DNA of 57,572 nucleotides from the NCBI GenBank assembly GCA_035316325.1, contig DATHJB010000203.1, positions 1 through 57,572 of the forward strand. The letters run 5' to 3'. This DNA is from Acidimicrobiales bacterium. Its GTDB lineage: Bacteria > Actinomycetota > Acidimicrobiia > Acidimicrobiales > VFJN01. A program made the translations under genes and the position numbers. Under the pieces are notes generated by a model that was given only the letters and a program-made list of their open reading frames with translations, made no database searches and was not told the origin of the DNA. Positions within the stretch are counted from its first letter, which is position 1; every line of letters begins with the position of its first letter. Positions 1 through 47,120 of this stretch are shown piece after piece.

Positions 1-123
1 TCGAAGCAGTTCCGGCGATGGCTCGCTGATCGTGCCGTCACCCCCGGCGCGGAGTTCGACAATGACGAGACGATTCGGCTGTTGGCCAAGCTCCCGTCCG
101 CTCCGGACGTGAAGCTCCGGTGA
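1..123 (+). CDS. 3' end of an unidentified gene (partial)
   Basis: An open frame runs from the first base of the window through 40 codons to TGA at 121-123, so only the C-terminus is visible. The peptide is charged, with a WLADRA segment followed by DNDETIRLLAKLP, and matches no family I recognise. The stop codon overlaps the GTG of the next small ORF (GTGA at 120-123), which suggests a co-transcribed gene. It probably lies inside the integrated element that ends at the tRNA-Gly fragment near 1400. No function is assigned. Confidence 0.45.
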   Translation, partial: SKQFRRWLADRAVTPGAEFDNDETIRLLAKLPSAPDVKLR

Positions 124-254
124 CGCTCTCGGCGACGGGGACGAGCCGGCGGGTAGAGGCGCACAACGAGCCGCAGCACGACCCCGGGGAGCGGGTGCAC
201 TGGGAACGACACGACGGTGGGCGTCGTTGGGAAGCGTGGGCATACCCCGAATGA
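120..254 (+). CDS. Small 44-codon ORF, translationally coupled to the preceding gene
   Basis: GTG at 120-122 overlaps the stop codon of the upstream gene in a GTGA arrangement, and the frame stays open to TGA at 252-254. The product is 44 residues, strongly polar, with a Trp-rich end (HWERHDGG then RRWEAWAYPE) and no membrane segment or signal. Coupling and the non-random C-terminus favour a real small protein of the mobile element. The length is short enough that chance cannot be excluded. Function unknown. Confidence 0.35.
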   Translation: MTLSATGTSRRVEAHNEPQHDPGERVHWERHDGGRRWEAWAYPE

Positions 255-280
255 CCTGACGGCGCGCCCAGTGCCGATGG

Positions 281-317
281 TTGTAGGTCGTTCTCTACCT
301 AGATAGGATACGACCTA
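281..317 (+). promoter_or_regulatory. Promoter with nested operator for the PadR gene; leaderless start
   Basis: TTGTAG at 281-286 and TAGGAT at 305-310 are separated by 18 nt. The ATG begins at 317, six bases after the -10 box, so the transcript probably starts at the initiation codon. A perfect 8-bp inverted repeat (TAGGTCGT at 284-291, ACGACCTA at 310-317) encloses the promoter, and a second palindrome CCTA-GA-TAGG lies at 298-307. Such symmetry across the promoter is the usual layout for autoregulation by a PadR dimer. Confidence 0.6.
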
Positions 318-628
318 TGCGAAAGACCCACGCCCTCGTGCAGGTGCTCCAAGCCCTCATGGACGATCCTATGGGGCGTCACTGGGGCTACGAGCTCGGC
401 AAGCGAGCCGGCGTCCGCTCGGGCGTGCTCTACCCGATCCTCCATCGGATGCTCAACGAAGGCTGGTTGGACGACGGCTGGGAGGAGGCCGACGAGACAA
501 GCCGCAAACGTCCGGCCCGGCGCTACTACGAGTTGACCCCGGATGGGCGCGCCGCCATCTCCGCCCTCCTCGTCGAGCTACGTGACGACGCCCGCTTCGC
601 TTCGTTCCTCCCCGGGGCGCCGGCATGA
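317..628 (+). CDS. PadR-family transcriptional regulator
   Basis: A 103-residue winged-helix regulator of the short PadR type. The N-terminal half has the family pattern: HWGYELGKRAGVRSGVLYPIL is the recognition region, LNEGWLDDGWEE leads into the wing, and RRYYELTPDGR is the typical PadR wing and last-strand sequence. PadR proteins are dimeric repressors that often respond to small molecules and control neighbouring membrane proteins. The only likely partner here is the DUF2314 membrane protein that starts in an ATGA overlap at the end of this gene. The promoter carries two nested palindromes right up to the start codon, so autoregulation is likely. There is no Shine-Dalgarno sequence, consistent with a leaderless message. 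Confidence 0.85.
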   Translation: MRKTHALVQVLQALMDDPMGRHWGYELGKRAGVRSGVLYPILHRMLNEGWLDDGWEEADETSRKRPARRYYELTPDGRAAISALLVELRDDARFASFLPGAPA

Positions 629-1215
629 GTGCTCTCCTGGAGGCCGTCGTGAGTTGGAGGACGCTGCTGTTGTCGATCCTCGTCTTCGGGTTCGCCCCCG
701 GAGCGGCACTCCGGATCATCGTCCTCGCCTTCCACCGAGAGGACCCCAGGCGACAGGAGCTGCTCGGGGAGATCTACGCCGTTCCCCGGTGGGAGCGCCC
801 CTACTGGGTGGCGCAACAGTTGGAGGCCGCAATCTTCGAAGGCCTTGGAGGGCGCATCGAGTGGGCACTCACCGGGCGGGTGATCTACCGCACCCACAAA
901 ACGTCTGGGGTGAAGATGAACCAGCGCTACCCGGACTCGTTCTCGATTCCCAGCGAGGAGGAGAAGGACTACGTCCTCGCCGGCGACTGGGTGAAGATCT
1001 GCTTCACCGTCGGCTGGCCCGACGAGTGGGGCGAGCGCATGTGGGTGAAGGTAGAGAAGGTCGGTCGCCAGAAGATGGTGGGAACCCTCGCCAACCAGCC
1101 CATCGGCTTCCCCCGCCTGGACTACGGGGACACGATCACATTCCGGCGAGAGCACATCATCGACATCGACTTCGTCGGCGATGAGGACGTAACTGAGGTC
1201 CACGAGGTTGCCTGA
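625..1215 (+). CDS. Membrane-anchored DUF2314-like protein
   Basis: A 196-residue protein with one N-terminal hydrophobic segment (about residues 10-33), then a soluble part. The C-terminal third (RMWVKVEKVGRQKMVGTLAN, then PRLDYGDTITFRREHIID) matches the DUF2314 pattern as I know it: a WV-V-V strand, a G-L-N turn and a Y/F-GD-V-F-REHI-D motif. The function of DUF2314 is not established. Its ATG overlaps the stop codon of the PadR gene (ATGA, 625-628), so the two are co-translated and this protein is the probable target of that regulator. It lies inside the presumed integrated element. The fold assignment rests on motif recall, so moderate confidence. Confidence 0.65.
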   Translation: MSALLEAVVSWRTLLLSILVFGFAPGAALRIIVLAFHREDPRRQELLGEIYAVPRWERPYWVAQQLEAAIFEGLGGRIEWALTGRVIYRTHKTSGVKMNQRYPDSFSIPSEEEKDYVLAGDWVKICFTVGWPDEWGERMWVKVEKVGRQKMVGTLANQPIGFPRLDYGDTITFRREHIIDIDFVGDEDVTEVHEVA

Positions 1216-1301
1216 ACGGCCACCTATCTGCTCTACCTACCCGTGTGGTTCCCATCTTGCCGTGACCTCACGACGCGGGCCACGGGCGGGCCACATGGTG
1301 A

Positions 1302-1373
1302 GACACCTCGCGGGCCGTCGACGGTCCCTACGAACGGATCGAGGAGCAGGTCGAGCGCTGGGCGCAGGAGTGA
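1302..1373 (+). pseudogene. Possible 3' remnant of a gene next to the tRNA-derived att site
   Basis: After an in-frame stop at 1299-1301, a frame of 23 codons without a start runs to TGA at 1371-1373 and encodes a charged helix (YERIEEQVERWAQE) that looks like a natural protein C-terminus. It ends nine bases before the tRNA-Gly fragment. In tRNA-targeted elements a recombination gene often lies next to the att site, but nothing here identifies this as an integrase tail. Low confidence. Confidence 0.2.
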
Positions 1374-1381
1374 TGCGAGGG

Positions 1382-1422
1382 TTCCCAAGCTGCTAATGCG
1401 AGTTCGATCCTCGTCACCCGCT
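1382..1422 (+). other. 3' half of a tRNA-Gly(CCC) gene: probable attR scar of an integrated element
   Basis: The stretch begins with an anticodon loop TTCCCAA (anticodon CCC), followed by the 3' side of the anticodon stem, a 4-nt variable loop and a complete T arm. The T arm has stem GCGAG/CTCGT and loop TTCGATC with the invariant TTC and A. It ends with the 3' acceptor strand CACCCGC and discriminator T. The 33 bases upstream do not supply the 5' half, so it cannot be a functional tRNA. A duplicated 3' tRNA end is what tyrosine recombinases leave when an element inserts at a tRNA gene. The orientation puts the element to the left (1-1381) and the original chromosome to the right. Confidence 0.7.
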
Positions 1423-1445
1423 CTCTCCTGATCGCCGCGGGGCGG

Positions 1446-1922: not shown

Positions 1923-2296
1923 CTACGGCGCCAGGGTGAAGTGGCCGTTGGTCAGGACGGGGGCGCCGGAGGGCTTCTCGGTTTGGAAGGTGGCCGTCGA
2001 ATCCGACGTGTGCCACATCTTGATCGTGAGGCGTTCGCCGGGGAAGACGGGGCGGCTGAAGCGGCCGGGCATCGAGGCGAAGCGGGACGTGTCGGAGCCG
2101 CCCGGCAGCACGGCGAACGTCGGGAGCACCGCCAGGGTGATCCCGTCCGAATTCTCCGTGGTGTAGGCCAGCTCGGGCCCAGTAGGGTCCTCCGCCCCTG
2201 CTCCTACACCGAGGGCGTAGAGGAGCACATCCCGTTCGGTCCACGACGCTCGGCCGGCTCGGATTCCTTCCCGACCGCATCCAGGTTGAGTGGCAC
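1923..2296 (-). pseudogene. Broken MaoC-type 2-enoyl-CoA hydratase gene (frameshift plus internal deletion)
   Basis: From GTG at 2296 one frame reads VPLNLDAVGKESEPAER, the usual start of hydratase-2/MaoC proteins. It loses the frame near 2244 and the next frame continues SWTERDVLLYALGVGAGAED, so one base is missing. The second frame proceeds through TTENS and VLPTFAVLPGG and then jumps to GRFSRPVFPGERLTIKMW, which belongs near the C-terminus of the family. About 165 residues, including the catalytic hot-dog region with its Asp/His pair, are absent. A normal member has about 280 residues; the open piece is 101. Its 5' end lies a few bases from the start region of the divergent helicase gene. 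The product cannot be an active hydratase. Confidence 0.75.
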
Positions 2297-5314: not shown

Positions 5315-6345
5315 GAGAACCGGACCTGACGACCACCGCCGTCGGCGCCGACCAGGCGACCGATCTCCCGAGCCGACTGCCCGGCATCCTCCAGCAGCGC
5401 CAGCGTGCGGGCCAGGTCCGACGGTGGGACGGCGACCACCATCCCGATGCCGAGGTTGAAGACCTTCGCCATCTCGTCGTCGGCGATGCCGCCGAGCCGC
5501 TGGATCTCCGTGAACACCCGGGGCACCTCCCACATGGAACGGTCGACCACCGCGTCGAGGCCCTCCGGCAGCACCCGGGGGACGTTGCCCACCAGCCCGC
5601 CGCCGGTGACGTGGGCGATCGCCCGCACGTCGACATCACCCAGCAGAGCGCGGACCGCGGGCGCGTAGATCACCGACGGGCGCAGCAGCTCGTCGCCGAC
5701 GGTGTGGCCGGCGAACAGCTCGTCGTGCACGTCGAGGCCGGCGACGTCGAACAGCACCCGCCGCGCCAGCGAGTAGCCGTTGGAGCGCAGGCCCGGCGAC
5801 GGCAGCCCCACCAGCACATCATCGGCCCGGGCCGTCGACCCGCCGATGATCCGGTCCCGCTCGACCACGCCCACCGCGAAGCCGGCGACGTCGATCTGCC
5901 CGGGAGCCATGGCACCCGGGTGCTCGGCCATCTCGCCGCCGATGAGGGCGCAGCCGGCCTGCCGGCAACCCTCGGCGACCCCGGCGACCACCTGCTCCAC
6001 CTGGTCGGGGTCGAGCTTGCCGGCCGACACGTAGTCGAGGAAGAACAGCGGCTCGGCGCCCTGGCACACCAGGTCGTCGACGCACATCGCCACCAGGTCG
6101 ATGCCGATGGTGTCGTAGCGGCCGACCATCTCGGCCACCATCACCTTGGTGCCGACCCCGTCGGTGGCGGCGACCAGCACCGGCTGCCGGTAGCGGTCGG
6201 TCGGCACGGCGAACAGCCCGCCGAACCCCCCGATGTCGCCCAGCACCTCGGGCCGGTACGTCGATCGCACCGCGGCCTTGATCCGATCGACCGCCTGCTC
6301 CCCCGCTTCGATGTCGACTCCCGCGGCCTTGTAACTCTCACCCAC
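5311..6345 (-). CDS. purM: Phosphoribosylformylglycinamidine cyclo-ligase (AIR synthetase)
   Basis: 344 residues, the usual PurM length. PurM closes FGAM to AIR using ATP. Visible family motifs are YKAAGVDIEAG at the start, DIGGFGGLF near 37, TDGVGTKVMVA near 61-71 (the ATP/Mg loop), then GGEMAEHPG and HVTGGGLVGNVPRVLP. GTG 6345 is chosen because it overlaps the purF stop (TAGTG) and gives the conserved N-terminus. The extra 79 codons upstream in frame are within purF. The 3' end overlaps pyrE by 4 bp. The purF-purM-pyrE overlaps make this a tightly coupled translation unit. Confidence 0.95.
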   Translation of the reverse strand: MGESYKAAGVDIEAGEQAVDRIKAAVRSTYRPEVLGDIGGFGGLFAVPTDRYRQPVLVAATDGVGTKVMVAEMVGRYDTIGIDLVAMCVDDLVCQGAEPLFFLDYVSAGKLDPDQVEQVVAGVAEGCRQAGCALIGGEMAEHPGAMAPGQIDVAGFAVGVVERDRIIGGSTARADDVLVGLPSPGLRSNGYSLARRVLFDVAGLDVHDELFAGHTVGDELLRPSVIYAPAVRALLGDVDVRAIAHVTGGGLVGNVPRVLPEGLDAVVDRSMWEVPRVFTEIQRLGGIADDEMAKVFNLGIGMVVAVPPSDLARTLALLEDAGQSAREIGRLVGADGGGRQVRFS

Positions 6346-7943
6346 TAGTAACTGGCACCTTCCAGCACGTGTTTGGTCAGCTCGACGGGGACCGCGACCG
6401 GGTAGTGGCCGGTGAAGCAGGCGTCGCAGAAGTCGGTGCCCGGGGAACCCGTGGCGGCGACCAGCCGGGGGAGGTCGAGGTAGGCCAGCGAGTCGACGTC
6501 GAGGTACTCCTGGATCTCCTCGACCGACTTGTTGTTGGCCAGCAGCTCGTTGCGGTCGCCGGTGTCGATGCCGTAGAAGCACGACCAGGCGACCGGAGGC
6601 GACGTGATGCGCAGGTGGACCTCCCGGGCCCCGGCCTCGCGCAGCATCCTGGTGAGCTGGCGCTGGGTGGTGCCCCGCACGATCGAGTCGTCGACCACCA
6701 CCAGCCGCTTGCCGTCGATGTTCTCGCGCAGCGGGTTGAGCTTCATCCGCACCGCCTGTGCCCGCTTCTCCTGGCTGGGGGCGATGAAGCTACGGCCGAT
6801 GTAGCGGTTCTTCACCAGGCCCTGCCCCTGCATGATGCCGCTGTGCCGGGCGAAGCCCTCGGCCGCCGGGACGCCCGACTCGGGCACGCCGATCACCATG
6901 TCGGCGACCGCCGGGGCCTGTTCGGCGAGCTGCTCCCCCATGGCGACGCGGGCCTGGTGGACGCTGCGGTCGTAGAGCCGGCTGTCGGGCCGGGCGAAGT
7001 ACACGAACTCGAACAGGCACAGCTTCGGGTCGACCCGCTCGGGCGCGAACGGATGGAACGACCGCGGGCCCTCGGCGTCGATCACGACCATCTCACCCGG
7101 GTCGAGCTCCCGGTCGAACTTGGCGCCCACGATGTCGAGCGCCGGCGTCTCGGAGGCCAGGACCCAGCCGTCGTCCAGCCGTCCCAGCGCCAACGGCCGG
7201 AACCCCTGCGGGTCACGCACCCCGACGATGCTGTCCTGGTCCATCAGCACCAGCGAGAACGCACCCTCCAACCGGGGGAGCACGGACACCAGCGCCTGCT
7301 CCAACGCCCGCGGGCTGTGACCGTTGCCGTTCGACGACGGCGACCCGGCGACCCGGGCCAGCTCGTGGGCGACCAGCTCGGCGATCAGGTCGCTGTCGGA
7401 CGTGACGGTGCCGGGCAGCATCCCCGCCGCCTCGGCCAGGGCCGCGGTGTTCACGAGGTTGCCGTTGTGGCCGAGGGCGAACTCGTCGTCGCCGACCGGC
7501 CGGTACGAGGGCTGGGCGTTGCGCCAGGTGCTCGAGCCGGTGGTGGAGTAGCGGGTGTGGCCGATGGCCAGGTCGCCGGACAGGCCAGCCAGGGTCCGCT
7601 CGTCGAACACGCTGGCCACGAGGCCCTGGTCCTTCACCACGGTGATGGTGTCGCGGTCGCTGACCGCCATGCCCGCAGCCTCTTGGCCACGGTGTTGGAG
7701 GGCGAAGAGCCCCAGGTAGGTGAGTTGCGCCACGGGTTGCCCCGGGCCGTACACGGCGAAGACGCCGCAGGCTTCCTTGAGAACGTCCGCGGACAGGTCC
7801 GCCTCGTCTCGGCCCGATGTGCTGCGCTGCCGGGAGGCCTCGCTGCTGAGCAGGTGACCGGCCGCCAAATCTCCACGCGTGGGCTGCCGGAGCATCCTCT
7901 CCGCTCGGCCTCTCAGGGAGCCGTCGTCAGCCACGGGCCCCAT
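6345..7943 (-). CDS. purF: Amidophosphoribosyltransferase
   Basis: 532 residues. PurF makes phosphoribosylamine from PRPP and glutamine, the committed step of purine synthesis. The N-terminal nucleophile is the Cys of KEACGVFAVYG at residue 59, implying a 58-residue propeptide, far longer than the roughly 11 residues in Bacillus. Glutaminase motifs include GHTRYSTTG and GHNGNLVN. The C-terminal PRTase half carries RLVVVDDSIVRGTTQ, the PRPP loop. Cysteines in KLCLFEFVYF, SCFYGID and FCDACFTG fit the 4Fe-4S-type enzyme. ATG 7943 has a GAGG site five bases upstream; a start at Met17 would shorten the leader. The stop codon overlaps the purM start. Confidence 0.95.
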   Translation of the reverse strand: MGPVADDGSLRGRAERMLRQPTRGDLAAGHLLSSEASRQRSTSGRDEADLSADVLKEACGVFAVYGPGQPVAQLTYLGLFALQHRGQEAAGMAVSDRDTITVVKDQGLVASVFDERTLAGLSGDLAIGHTRYSTTGSSTWRNAQPSYRPVGDDEFALGHNGNLVNTAALAEAAGMLPGTVTSDSDLIAELVAHELARVAGSPSSNGNGHSPRALEQALVSVLPRLEGAFSLVLMDQDSIVGVRDPQGFRPLALGRLDDGWVLASETPALDIVGAKFDRELDPGEMVVIDAEGPRSFHPFAPERVDPKLCLFEFVYFARPDSRLYDRSVHQARVAMGEQLAEQAPAVADMVIGVPESGVPAAEGFARHSGIMQGQGLVKNRYIGRSFIAPSQEKRAQAVRMKLNPLRENIDGKRLVVVDDSIVRGTTQRQLTRMLREAGAREVHLRITSPPVAWSCFYGIDTGDRNELLANNKSVEEIQEYLDVDSLAYLDLPRLVAATGSPGTDFCDACFTGHYPVAVPVELTKHVLEGASY

Positions 7944-8036
7944 TCTGCCTCGCTGCGCGCGCTCCGCGGCGAACTACCGGTGTTCGTTCCAGCGTCCCAG
8001 CAGCGCCGGGCACGCACCACTACGCTCCACAGCCCG

Positions 8037-8540
8037 ATGGGGAACGTCGTCAGCGCCGTGCTCGACCGGGTCGACCGCATCATCGACCCACTGCCGCCCA
8101 CGTTGCAGAAGCTGTTGCGCTACTCGGTGGCCTCGGGCACCGGTGTGGTCTTCTACGCCGTGGTGCTGATCCTCACCAACGCGGTGATCGGCCTGGGCGA
8201 CATGACGTCGCACCTGATCTCGGTGACCGTCTCGTCGGTGCCGAACTACCTGGTCAACCGCTACTGGACCTGGAACCAGCAGGGCAAGAACCGGCTCTGG
8301 GGCGAGGTCGTGCCGTTCTGGACCATGGCCTTCCTGGCGTTCCTGCTGTCGCTGCTGTTCGTCAACTACGCCGAGGACCGGTGGGGCACCACGTTCGCCA
8401 TCCTCGCCGCCAACCTGAGCGCCTTCGGGGTGCTGTGGCTGGCCCGCTTCCTGGTGCTCGACAAGATCATGTGGAAAGTGGTCCACGAGCTGCACCCGGA
8501 GCTCGACGACGTCGAGGTCGAGATCGTCCGCGAGGGGTAA
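8037..8540 (+). CDS. GtrA-like membrane protein
   Basis: A 167-residue protein with four hydrophobic helices and the GtrA signature: LLRYSVASGTGVVFYAVVL in the first helix, SSVPNYLVNRYWTW after the second, and the last helix ending FLVLDKIMW. GtrA-family proteins help move polyprenyl-phosphate-linked sugars across the membrane for cell-wall or surface glycan modification. The C-terminal tail is cytoplasmic and acidic. The gene sits on the opposite strand between purF and purL, divergent from purF (93 bp) and convergent with purL (22 bp). A TACGCT box lies ten bases before the ATG and there is no ribosome site, so the leader is at most a few bases. Confidence 0.8.
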   Translation: MGNVVSAVLDRVDRIIDPLPPTLQKLLRYSVASGTGVVFYAVVLILTNAVIGLGDMTSHLISVTVSSVPNYLVNRYWTWNQQGKNRLWGEVVPFWTMAFLAFLLSLLFVNYAEDRWGTTFAILAANLSAFGVLWLARFLVLDKIMWKVVHELHPELDDVEVEIVREG

Positions 8541-45873: not shown

Positions 45874-45936
45874 CGCTCGTGTCTCCGGCGAGCGCTACGA
45901 AAGGCGCTCGTGTCTCCCGGCGAGCGCTACGAAAGG
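45874..45936. repeat. Tandem 31/32-bp repeat, each carrying a hairpin, at the thiolase 3' end
   Basis: Units 45874-45904 and 45905-45936 are identical except for one extra C. Each begins CGCTCGTGTCTCC and ends in CGAGCGCTACGAAAGG. With the following GCGCTCG, each unit forms a 7-bp stem (CGAGCGC / GCGCTCG, 8-nt loop). The second copy includes the last codons and stop of the thiolase gene, so the first copy looks like a duplication of the gene end and could act as a double terminator. Confidence 0.75.
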
Positions 45937-47120
45937 CGCTCGATGATCATGGCGTTGGCCAGGCCGCCACCCTCGCACATCGTCTGCAGCCCGTAACGGC
46001 CGCCGGTGCGCTCCAGCTCGTTGAGCAGCGTGGCGGTCAGCTTGGTGCCGGAGCAGCCGAGCGGGTGGCCGAGGGCGATCGCGCCCCCGTTGACGTTGAC
46101 CTTCTCGAAGTCGGCACCGGTCTCCTGCTGCCAGGCGAGCACCACGGAGGCGAAGGCCTCGTTGACCTCGAACAGGTCGATGTCGTCGATGGTGAGGCCG
46201 GCCTTGGCCAGCACCTTCTCCGTCGACGGGATCGGCCCGGTGAGCATCATCACCGGGTCGACGCCGGCCAGGGCGAAGGCCACGAACCGGGCCCGGGGCC
46301 GCAGGCCGAGCTGGTTGGCCTTCTCCTCGCTCATGATGAGCGAGGCCGAGGCGCCGTCGGAGATCTGGCTGCTGTTGGCCGCGGTCACCTTGCCGTCGGG
46401 CTTGAAGGCGGGCTTCAGGCTGGCCAGCGACTCGAGGGAGCTCTCGCGGATGCCCTCGTCGGCGGTCACCAGCTCGGCGCTCTCGGAGACGTCGCCGGAG
46501 TCCTTGTCGCGGTGCTTCGACGTGACGGCGACGATCTCGTTCTCGAAGCGGCCCTCGTCGCGGGCCTGGGCGGCGCGCTGCTGGCTGCGGAGGCCGAAGG
46601 CGTCGAGGTCCTGGCGGCTGAGGCCCCACTTGTCGGCGATCATCTCCGCCGAGATGCCCTGGGGCACGAGGCCGCCGACGTCCTGGTAGCGCAGGCCCAT
46701 GCGGGGCCCGAACGGGAAGCCGAACTTGCCGTCGCCGACCGACGCGCCCATCGGCACCTGGCTCATGATCTCCACGCCGGCAGCGACGACGACGTCGTGC
46801 ACGCCGGCCATCACGGCCTGGGCGGCGAAGTGGGTCGACTGCTGCGACGAGCCGCACTGGCGGTCGATGGTCGTCGCCGGCACCTCCTCGGGCCAGCCGG
46901 CGGCGAGCACGGCGTTGCGACCGACGTTGATCGACTGCGCGCCGGCCTGCATGACGCAGCCCATGATCACGTCCTCGACCACGCCGGGGTCGAGGTCGTT
47001 GCGCTCGGCGAGCGCGTTCAGGGTCTCGGCGGCGAGGTCGGCGGGATGCCAACCCGAGAGCCTGCCGTTGCGCTTGCCGCCTCCGGTGCGGACAGCGTCG
47101 ACGATGACGGCGGTAGGCAT
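45927..47120 (-). CDS. Acetyl-CoA acyltransferase (thiolase)
   Basis: 397 residues from ATG 47120, which has AGGAG eight bases upstream. The nucleophilic Cys is C89 in ATTIDRQCGSSQQS, the His is in GGAIALGHPLGCSGTKL, and the second Cys is in YGLQTMCEGGGLANAM. The loop LTGPIPSTEKVLAKAGL and DIDLFEVNEAFASV are also typical. The enzyme cleaves 3-ketoacyl-CoA or condenses acetyl-CoA units. Beside it, divergently, is an acyl-CoA synthetase and between them a palindromic operator, so it is probably part of fatty-acid or lipid degradation. The 3' end is inside a tandem repeat. Confidence 0.92.
   Translation of the reverse strand: MPTAVIVDAVRTGGGKRNGRLSGWHPADLAAETLNALAERNDLDPGVVEDVIMGCVMQAGAQSINVGRNAVLAAGWPEEVPATTIDRQCGSSQQSTHFAAQAVMAGVHDVVVAAGVEIMSQVPMGASVGDGKFGFPFGPRMGLRYQDVGGLVPQGISAEMIADKWGLSRQDLDAFGLRSQQRAAQARDEGRFENEIVAVTSKHRDKDSGDVSESAELVTADEGIRESSLESLASLKPAFKPDGKVTAANSSQISDGASASLIMSEEKANQLGLRPRARFVAFALAGVDPVMMLTGPIPSTEKVLAKAGLTIDDIDLFEVNEAFASVVLAWQQETGADFEKVNVNGGAIALGHPLGCSGTKLTATLLNELERTGGRYGLQTMCEGGGLANAMIIERLS

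Follow-up and report, generated by a model that had tools for sequence, protein, structure and literature searches.

The left edge of the stretch of DNA analysed here (the window, 57,572 nucleotides, which is the complete contig C203 of an Acidimicrobiales draft genome of 244 contigs and 6.37 Mb) carries half of a tRNA gene, and the question is how this half came to stand there alone. On the forward strand, window 1382-1422 extends from the anticodon loop (TTCCCAA) of a tRNA-Gly(CCC) to the discriminator, includes a complete T arm and has no 5' half, and it was called as a tRNA neither by ARAGORN nor by Rfam, the latter tried up to an E-value of 1. The T arm and acceptor end of the fragment occur once in the window (0 of 100 shuffles). 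A preliminary description of this DNA had reported a lone 3' piece of 41 nt and had placed the corresponding intact tRNA-Gly(CCC), ending in the sequence of the fragment, outside the window. Both statements held when the sequence was extended leftward in search of a second copy: an intact tRNA-Gly(CCC) was found 3,940 bp away on C116, another contig (6,876 bp) of the host draft genome, and the shared stretch was 44 nt rather than 41 nt. Window 1382-1425 is identical to C116:4307-4350 (E about 6e-16), which forms the 3' part of the intact gene at C116:4277-4348, the sole intact tRNA-Gly(CCC) found in the host genome. The sequence of window 1382-1425 has one further exact copy in the host genome, the other close match being tRNA-Gly(TCC), and a search of the genome contig collection with the 40-nt core matched no other species. 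Window 1-1425 is very probably the right end of a 3,940-bp element that was integrated at the host tRNA-Gly(CCC) by a tyrosine integrase and is now decayed or non-autonomous.

One point to be set against an integrated element is that its two ends lie on separate contigs, with an overlap of only 11 nt (TCGAAGCAGTT) between the right end of C116 and the left end of the window. An ORF that starts at C116:6071 leaves this contig in frame and continues to a stop codon at window 123, giving a total of 305 residues. Four homologues (303, 310, 298 and 306 residues) align over residues 1-305 and thereby cross the join, at residues 265-269; their identity to the 305-aa protein is 69% in Micromonospora, 56% in Nonomuraea, 57% in an Acidimicrobiales MAG and 36% in an alphaproteobacterium. 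Since sequence missing at the join would break the agreement with the homologues in length and C-terminus, C116 is taken as directly adjoining the left end of the window, on the strength of sequence comparison (the 11-nt overlap, the in-frame ORF and the four homologues). With the contigs adjacent, the distance between the two repeats, which share a strand, is 3,940 bp, and the displaced half (the scar) lies downstream of the tRNA, in the orientation that integration requires.

The element delimited in this way (left part C116:4307-6876) contains, in order, tRNA-Gly(CCC) (attL), an AlbA_2 gene, an integrase stub, the 305-aa ORF, the PadR gene, the DUF2314 gene and the scar (Table 1). Its G+C content is 64.8%, compared with 71.9% and 71.6% for the left and right flanks, respectively, where 3.9-kb windows of the right flank have a standard deviation of 1.2. 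An element to the left of the fragment that carries the PadR/DUF2314 pair had been predicted, and is borne out by the repeat on C116 together with the join. The gene that is actually cut is another than the one claimed, and lies at the window edge (window 1-123, with its start on C116). Neither the small coupled ORF nor the broken gene end claimed beside the scar gave a family match in Pfam, and the latter is more likely attachment-site DNA. A non-coding attachment-site arm is the better interpretation of window 1216-1381, which includes the arm-type repeat described below.

Table 1. Features of the integrated element and their positions in the window and on contig C116
Feature	Position	Strand	Evidence or remark
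Right-hand part of the 3,940-bp element with the right attachment site	window 1-1425	+	overlap, ORF, homologues, G+C
AlbA_2/Schlafen-type ORF	C116:4382-5809		Pfam 7.2e-11
Tyrosine integrase C-terminal stub	C116:5837-6094	opposite strand	integrase profile
305-aa ORF, C-terminal 40 codons and stop	window 1-123	+	starts C116:6071
PadR-family regulator, putative cargo	window 317-628	+	Pfam PadR 7.5e-11
DUF2314 protein with hydrophobic N-terminus, putative cargo	window 625-1215	+	Pfam 4.6e-6
Candidate arm doublet, right	window 1277-1294	+	87 bp inside right core
Candidate arm doublet, left	C116:4421-4438		70 bp inside left core
attR, displaced 3' half of tRNA-Gly(CCC)	window 1382-1425	+	44-nt exact repeat of C116:4307-4350

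On the left side of the element, dcd adjoins tRNA-Gly(CCC) in most relatives examined and lies 1.9 kb upstream in the host; the arrangement of this flank looks ancestral. The genes of the right flank (DUF3806, helicase) were not found beside tRNA-Gly(CCC) in the relatives examined, the DUF3806 gene being found in the host genome only and the helicase being common among relatives. Just right of the scar, on the reverse strand, a short ORF (window 1923-2228) showed weak, below-cut-off matches to MaoC/MFE-2 hydratase domains and may be a disrupted dehydratase gene. At window 45874-45942 a 32-nt unit is repeated 2.2 times with 97% match, and no tandem repeat in the window is stronger.

In the related bacteria that were examined, mobile DNA turns out to favour the tRNA-Gly(CCC) gene as an insertion point. 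At least 17 of the 99 genomes of the order (host included) have orphan 3' halves of tRNA-Gly(CCC) with the same cut point, and in the 11 other genomes that have a scar and the intact tRNA on one contig, each of the 15 scars is downstream of the tRNA and shares its strand. Tandem arrays of four scars (G094) and two scars (G093) were found downstream of a single intact tRNA-Gly(CCC), and G035 probably also carries such an array (L084, L044). A tyrosine integrase lies near tRNA-Gly(CCC) in eight genomes (G009, G019, G032, G034, G035, G062, G093 and G096). The cargo at this hotspot includes a GmrSD-type restriction enzyme with a methylase (G014, G019), a PIN-domain protein (G068), another AlbA_2 protein (G055), DUF5615 together with a TOTE primase-helicase (G094), a TrwC relaxase (G096) and a P-type ATPase (G093). 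A RES/Xre toxin-antitoxin pair was found in G005, of the same family as the host, where it lies in a 1.8-kb island bounded by the intact tRNA-Gly(CCC) and its scar (L052, reverse-complement coordinates 6210-8083). No published account of a tRNA-Gly(CCC) hotspot was found in the open-access literature.

The doublet GGGCCAC-N4-GGGCCAC has exactly two occurrences in the 6.37-Mb host genome, just inside both ends of the element, and none of 3000 resamplings of the two end segments reproduced such a doublet match. The doublet was first spotted by eye, and independent support came from the elements of relatives: ten other elements at tRNA-Gly(CCC) carry at each end a doublet of their own, likewise spaced at 11 bp (for example, GTGCCAC, ATGGCAC, GTGCCTA and ATCCAAC). 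Left and right doublets match at 13-14 of 14 positions in 11 of the 20 elements examined (the host's included; for the G019, G034 and G035 elements the ends are on different contigs and their pairing is assumed), and pairing within the same element was equalled in none of 20,000 permutations. The GGGCCAC-N4-GGGCCAC pair is a candidate for the arm-type sites of the integrase, and with these predicted sites the host element has the layout of a tyrosine-integrase attP, in which repeats in pairs flank the core.

In the proposed course of events, a tyrosine integrase would have recombined the attachment site of the element with the part of the tRNA-Gly(CCC) gene that extends from the anticodon loop to the 3' end. 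The element's own tRNA 3' half would have completed the tRNA at the left end (on C116), leaving the displaced host 3' half at the right end, in the window. Most of the integrase gene would have been deleted later, so that any movement of the element would now depend on an integrase supplied in trans. The AlbA_2, proteasome-like and PadR/DUF2314 genes would constitute its cargo.

An integrase had been expected beside the intact tRNA in the preliminary description. No intact integrase was found there or elsewhere inside the element, only the C-terminal stub of a tyrosine integrase, which is separated from the tRNA by 1.5 kb that include the AlbA_2 gene. The stub was identified with a profile of nine intact integrases taken from beside tRNA-Gly(CCC) in related genomes, and matches the C-terminus of these hotspot integrases (33 aa, E 3e-8; 0 of 200 shuffles); it gave no match to phage records and was detectable only against the hotspot's own integrases. 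Because there is no intact integrase inside, the element is classed as decayed or non-autonomous. Whether it is a decayed remnant or a living, non-autonomous element that is mobile by means of an integrase acting in trans has to be weighed at this point. Such continued mobility would agree with the identity of the core repeats and the intactness of both arm doublets, with the eight matches above the Phage_integrase cut-off in the host genome (all on contigs other than the element's) and with the elements of G055, G068 and G005, for which there was no match to the integrase queries used. We nevertheless consider it unlikely, as the stub inside the element points to loss, and matching arm specificity is demonstrated for none of the other host integrases.

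The position of the stub, at a distance from the tRNA and behind the AlbA_2 gene, together with the tandem arrays in G035, G093 and G094, could also suggest that two or more elements are stacked, with an AlbA_2 element and a PadR/DUF2314 element landing successively, and that the internal scar was deleted with most of the integrase gene. This stacking appears improbable: both ends carry the same arm doublet, whereas tandem pairs in G093 (two successive elements) and in G035 carry different doublets, no internal scar was found in the element, and G009 likewise has genes between its tRNA and an intact integrase about 1.4 kb away. That the tRNA piece arose by chance or duplication without integration, or that C116 does not adjoin the window, is very improbable in spite of the separate draft contigs and the short common stretch, because the 305-aa ORF reaches its full length only when C116 runs straight into the window, contigs would hardly overlap by chance with both orientation and frame correct, and an integrated element accounts well for the base composition and the arm repeats.

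Within the element at tRNA-Gly(CCC), the 305-aa ORF gave no sequence match in Pfam, PADLOC, PDB or plasmids, and only two weak partial matches to its protein were found among 98 relatives. The family is spread over scattered actinobacteria and one alphaproteobacterium, and is here located on a mobile element. A homologue model from four sequences, of moderate confidence (pLDDT 64), matched Anbu and 20S proteasome subunits with Z-scores of about 15, among them Anbu 5nyw_B (Z 15.3, 4.0 Å over 196 residues). All four homologues have Thr2, Asp18 and Lys35 unchanged, and these residues are close to the active-site residues Thr1, Asp17 and Lys33 of proteasomes. By its predicted fold the protein may be a proteasome-like Ntn-hydrolase, and the gene may represent a protease cargo.

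The remaining two genes, PadR and DUF2314, are a travelling gene pair. The start of the DUF2314 gene overlaps the stop of padR by 4 nt (window 625-628), and the same pair with the same 4-nt overlap is present on the Glutamicibacter plasmid pRE117-2 and the Clavibacter plasmid pMSF1 (plasmid records NC_014548.1 and NZ_CP047053.1; loci L139:2687-3576 and L140:4735-5579), with PadR identities to the plasmid partners of 52% and 56%. In pRE117-2 the pair adjoins mobilisation genes. The DUF2314 protein was found in 0 of the 59 relatives searched, and DUF2314 was not found in IMG/VR viral contigs.

A wider reading of these observations, which we put forward as speculation with a low chance of being right, is that tRNA-Gly(CCC) would be a conserved landing pad in the order, used by integrases of different arm specificity that share one core, that integrase-less elements with cognate arms, the present one among them, would be moved in trans by related integrases, and that the cargo, including the proteasome-like family without a Pfam match, would consist of unrecognised phage-defence modules.

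Among known systems, a prophage or an integrative conjugative element was considered for the host element and rejected, as no phage structural or transfer genes were present among the ORFs scanned (Pfam, PHROGs, NCBIfam). The actinomycete integrative elements known as AICEs resemble it in being integrated into tRNA genes by a tyrosine integrase (PMC3218068), but differ in that no conjugation or replication genes were recognised here; the survey of AICEs reported none in Acidimicrobidae (PMC3218068). The attP of Cluster K mycobacteriophages, in which the common core is flanked on either side by a pair of 11-bp arm-type repeats (PMC3203893), is similar in layout to the ends of the element, although the phage cores lie in a tmRNA or tRNA-Lys gene (PMC3203893) rather than in tRNA-Gly(CCC), and the arm sites of the element are predicted only, are in direct orientation and belong with a broken integrase.

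A further close comparison is with the islands collected by Islander, in which a tyrosine integrase inserts an element into a tRNA gene, the 3' half supplied by the element makes the gene whole again, and the half it displaces stays behind as a mark of the far end (PMC4383910); an anticodon-centred ('A') subsite is one Islander class (PMC4383910). As in those islands, an intact tRNA lies at one end and a displaced 3' fragment at the other, in the same orientation and more than 2 kb apart (PMC4383910). The intact gene and the fragment are in the same replicon by way of the contig join, the fragment is downstream within the 2-200 kb range (3,940 bp), and it falls outside conserved coding domains, the ORFs that overlap it being without a Pfam match. 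The difference is that only the stub, and no integrase ORF, is found inside, for which reason the integrase filter of Islander would discard the element and it is filed here as decayed or non-autonomous instead of as a putatively active island. In all other respects it is a tRNA-gene island of a well-known kind. As the case shows, a tRNA scar close to the edge of a contig can be explained once its counterpart is located elsewhere in the draft genome. The case also brings to light a hotspot that serves a whole bacterial order and has restriction and toxin-antitoxin genes among its cargo. Integrase-free islands are missed by integrase-based finders such as Islander, and paired, element-specific arm repeats provide a simple rule by which islands can be delimited even without an integrase; the order-wide hotspot and its integrase-free islands that keep intact arm sites should be of use to specialists.
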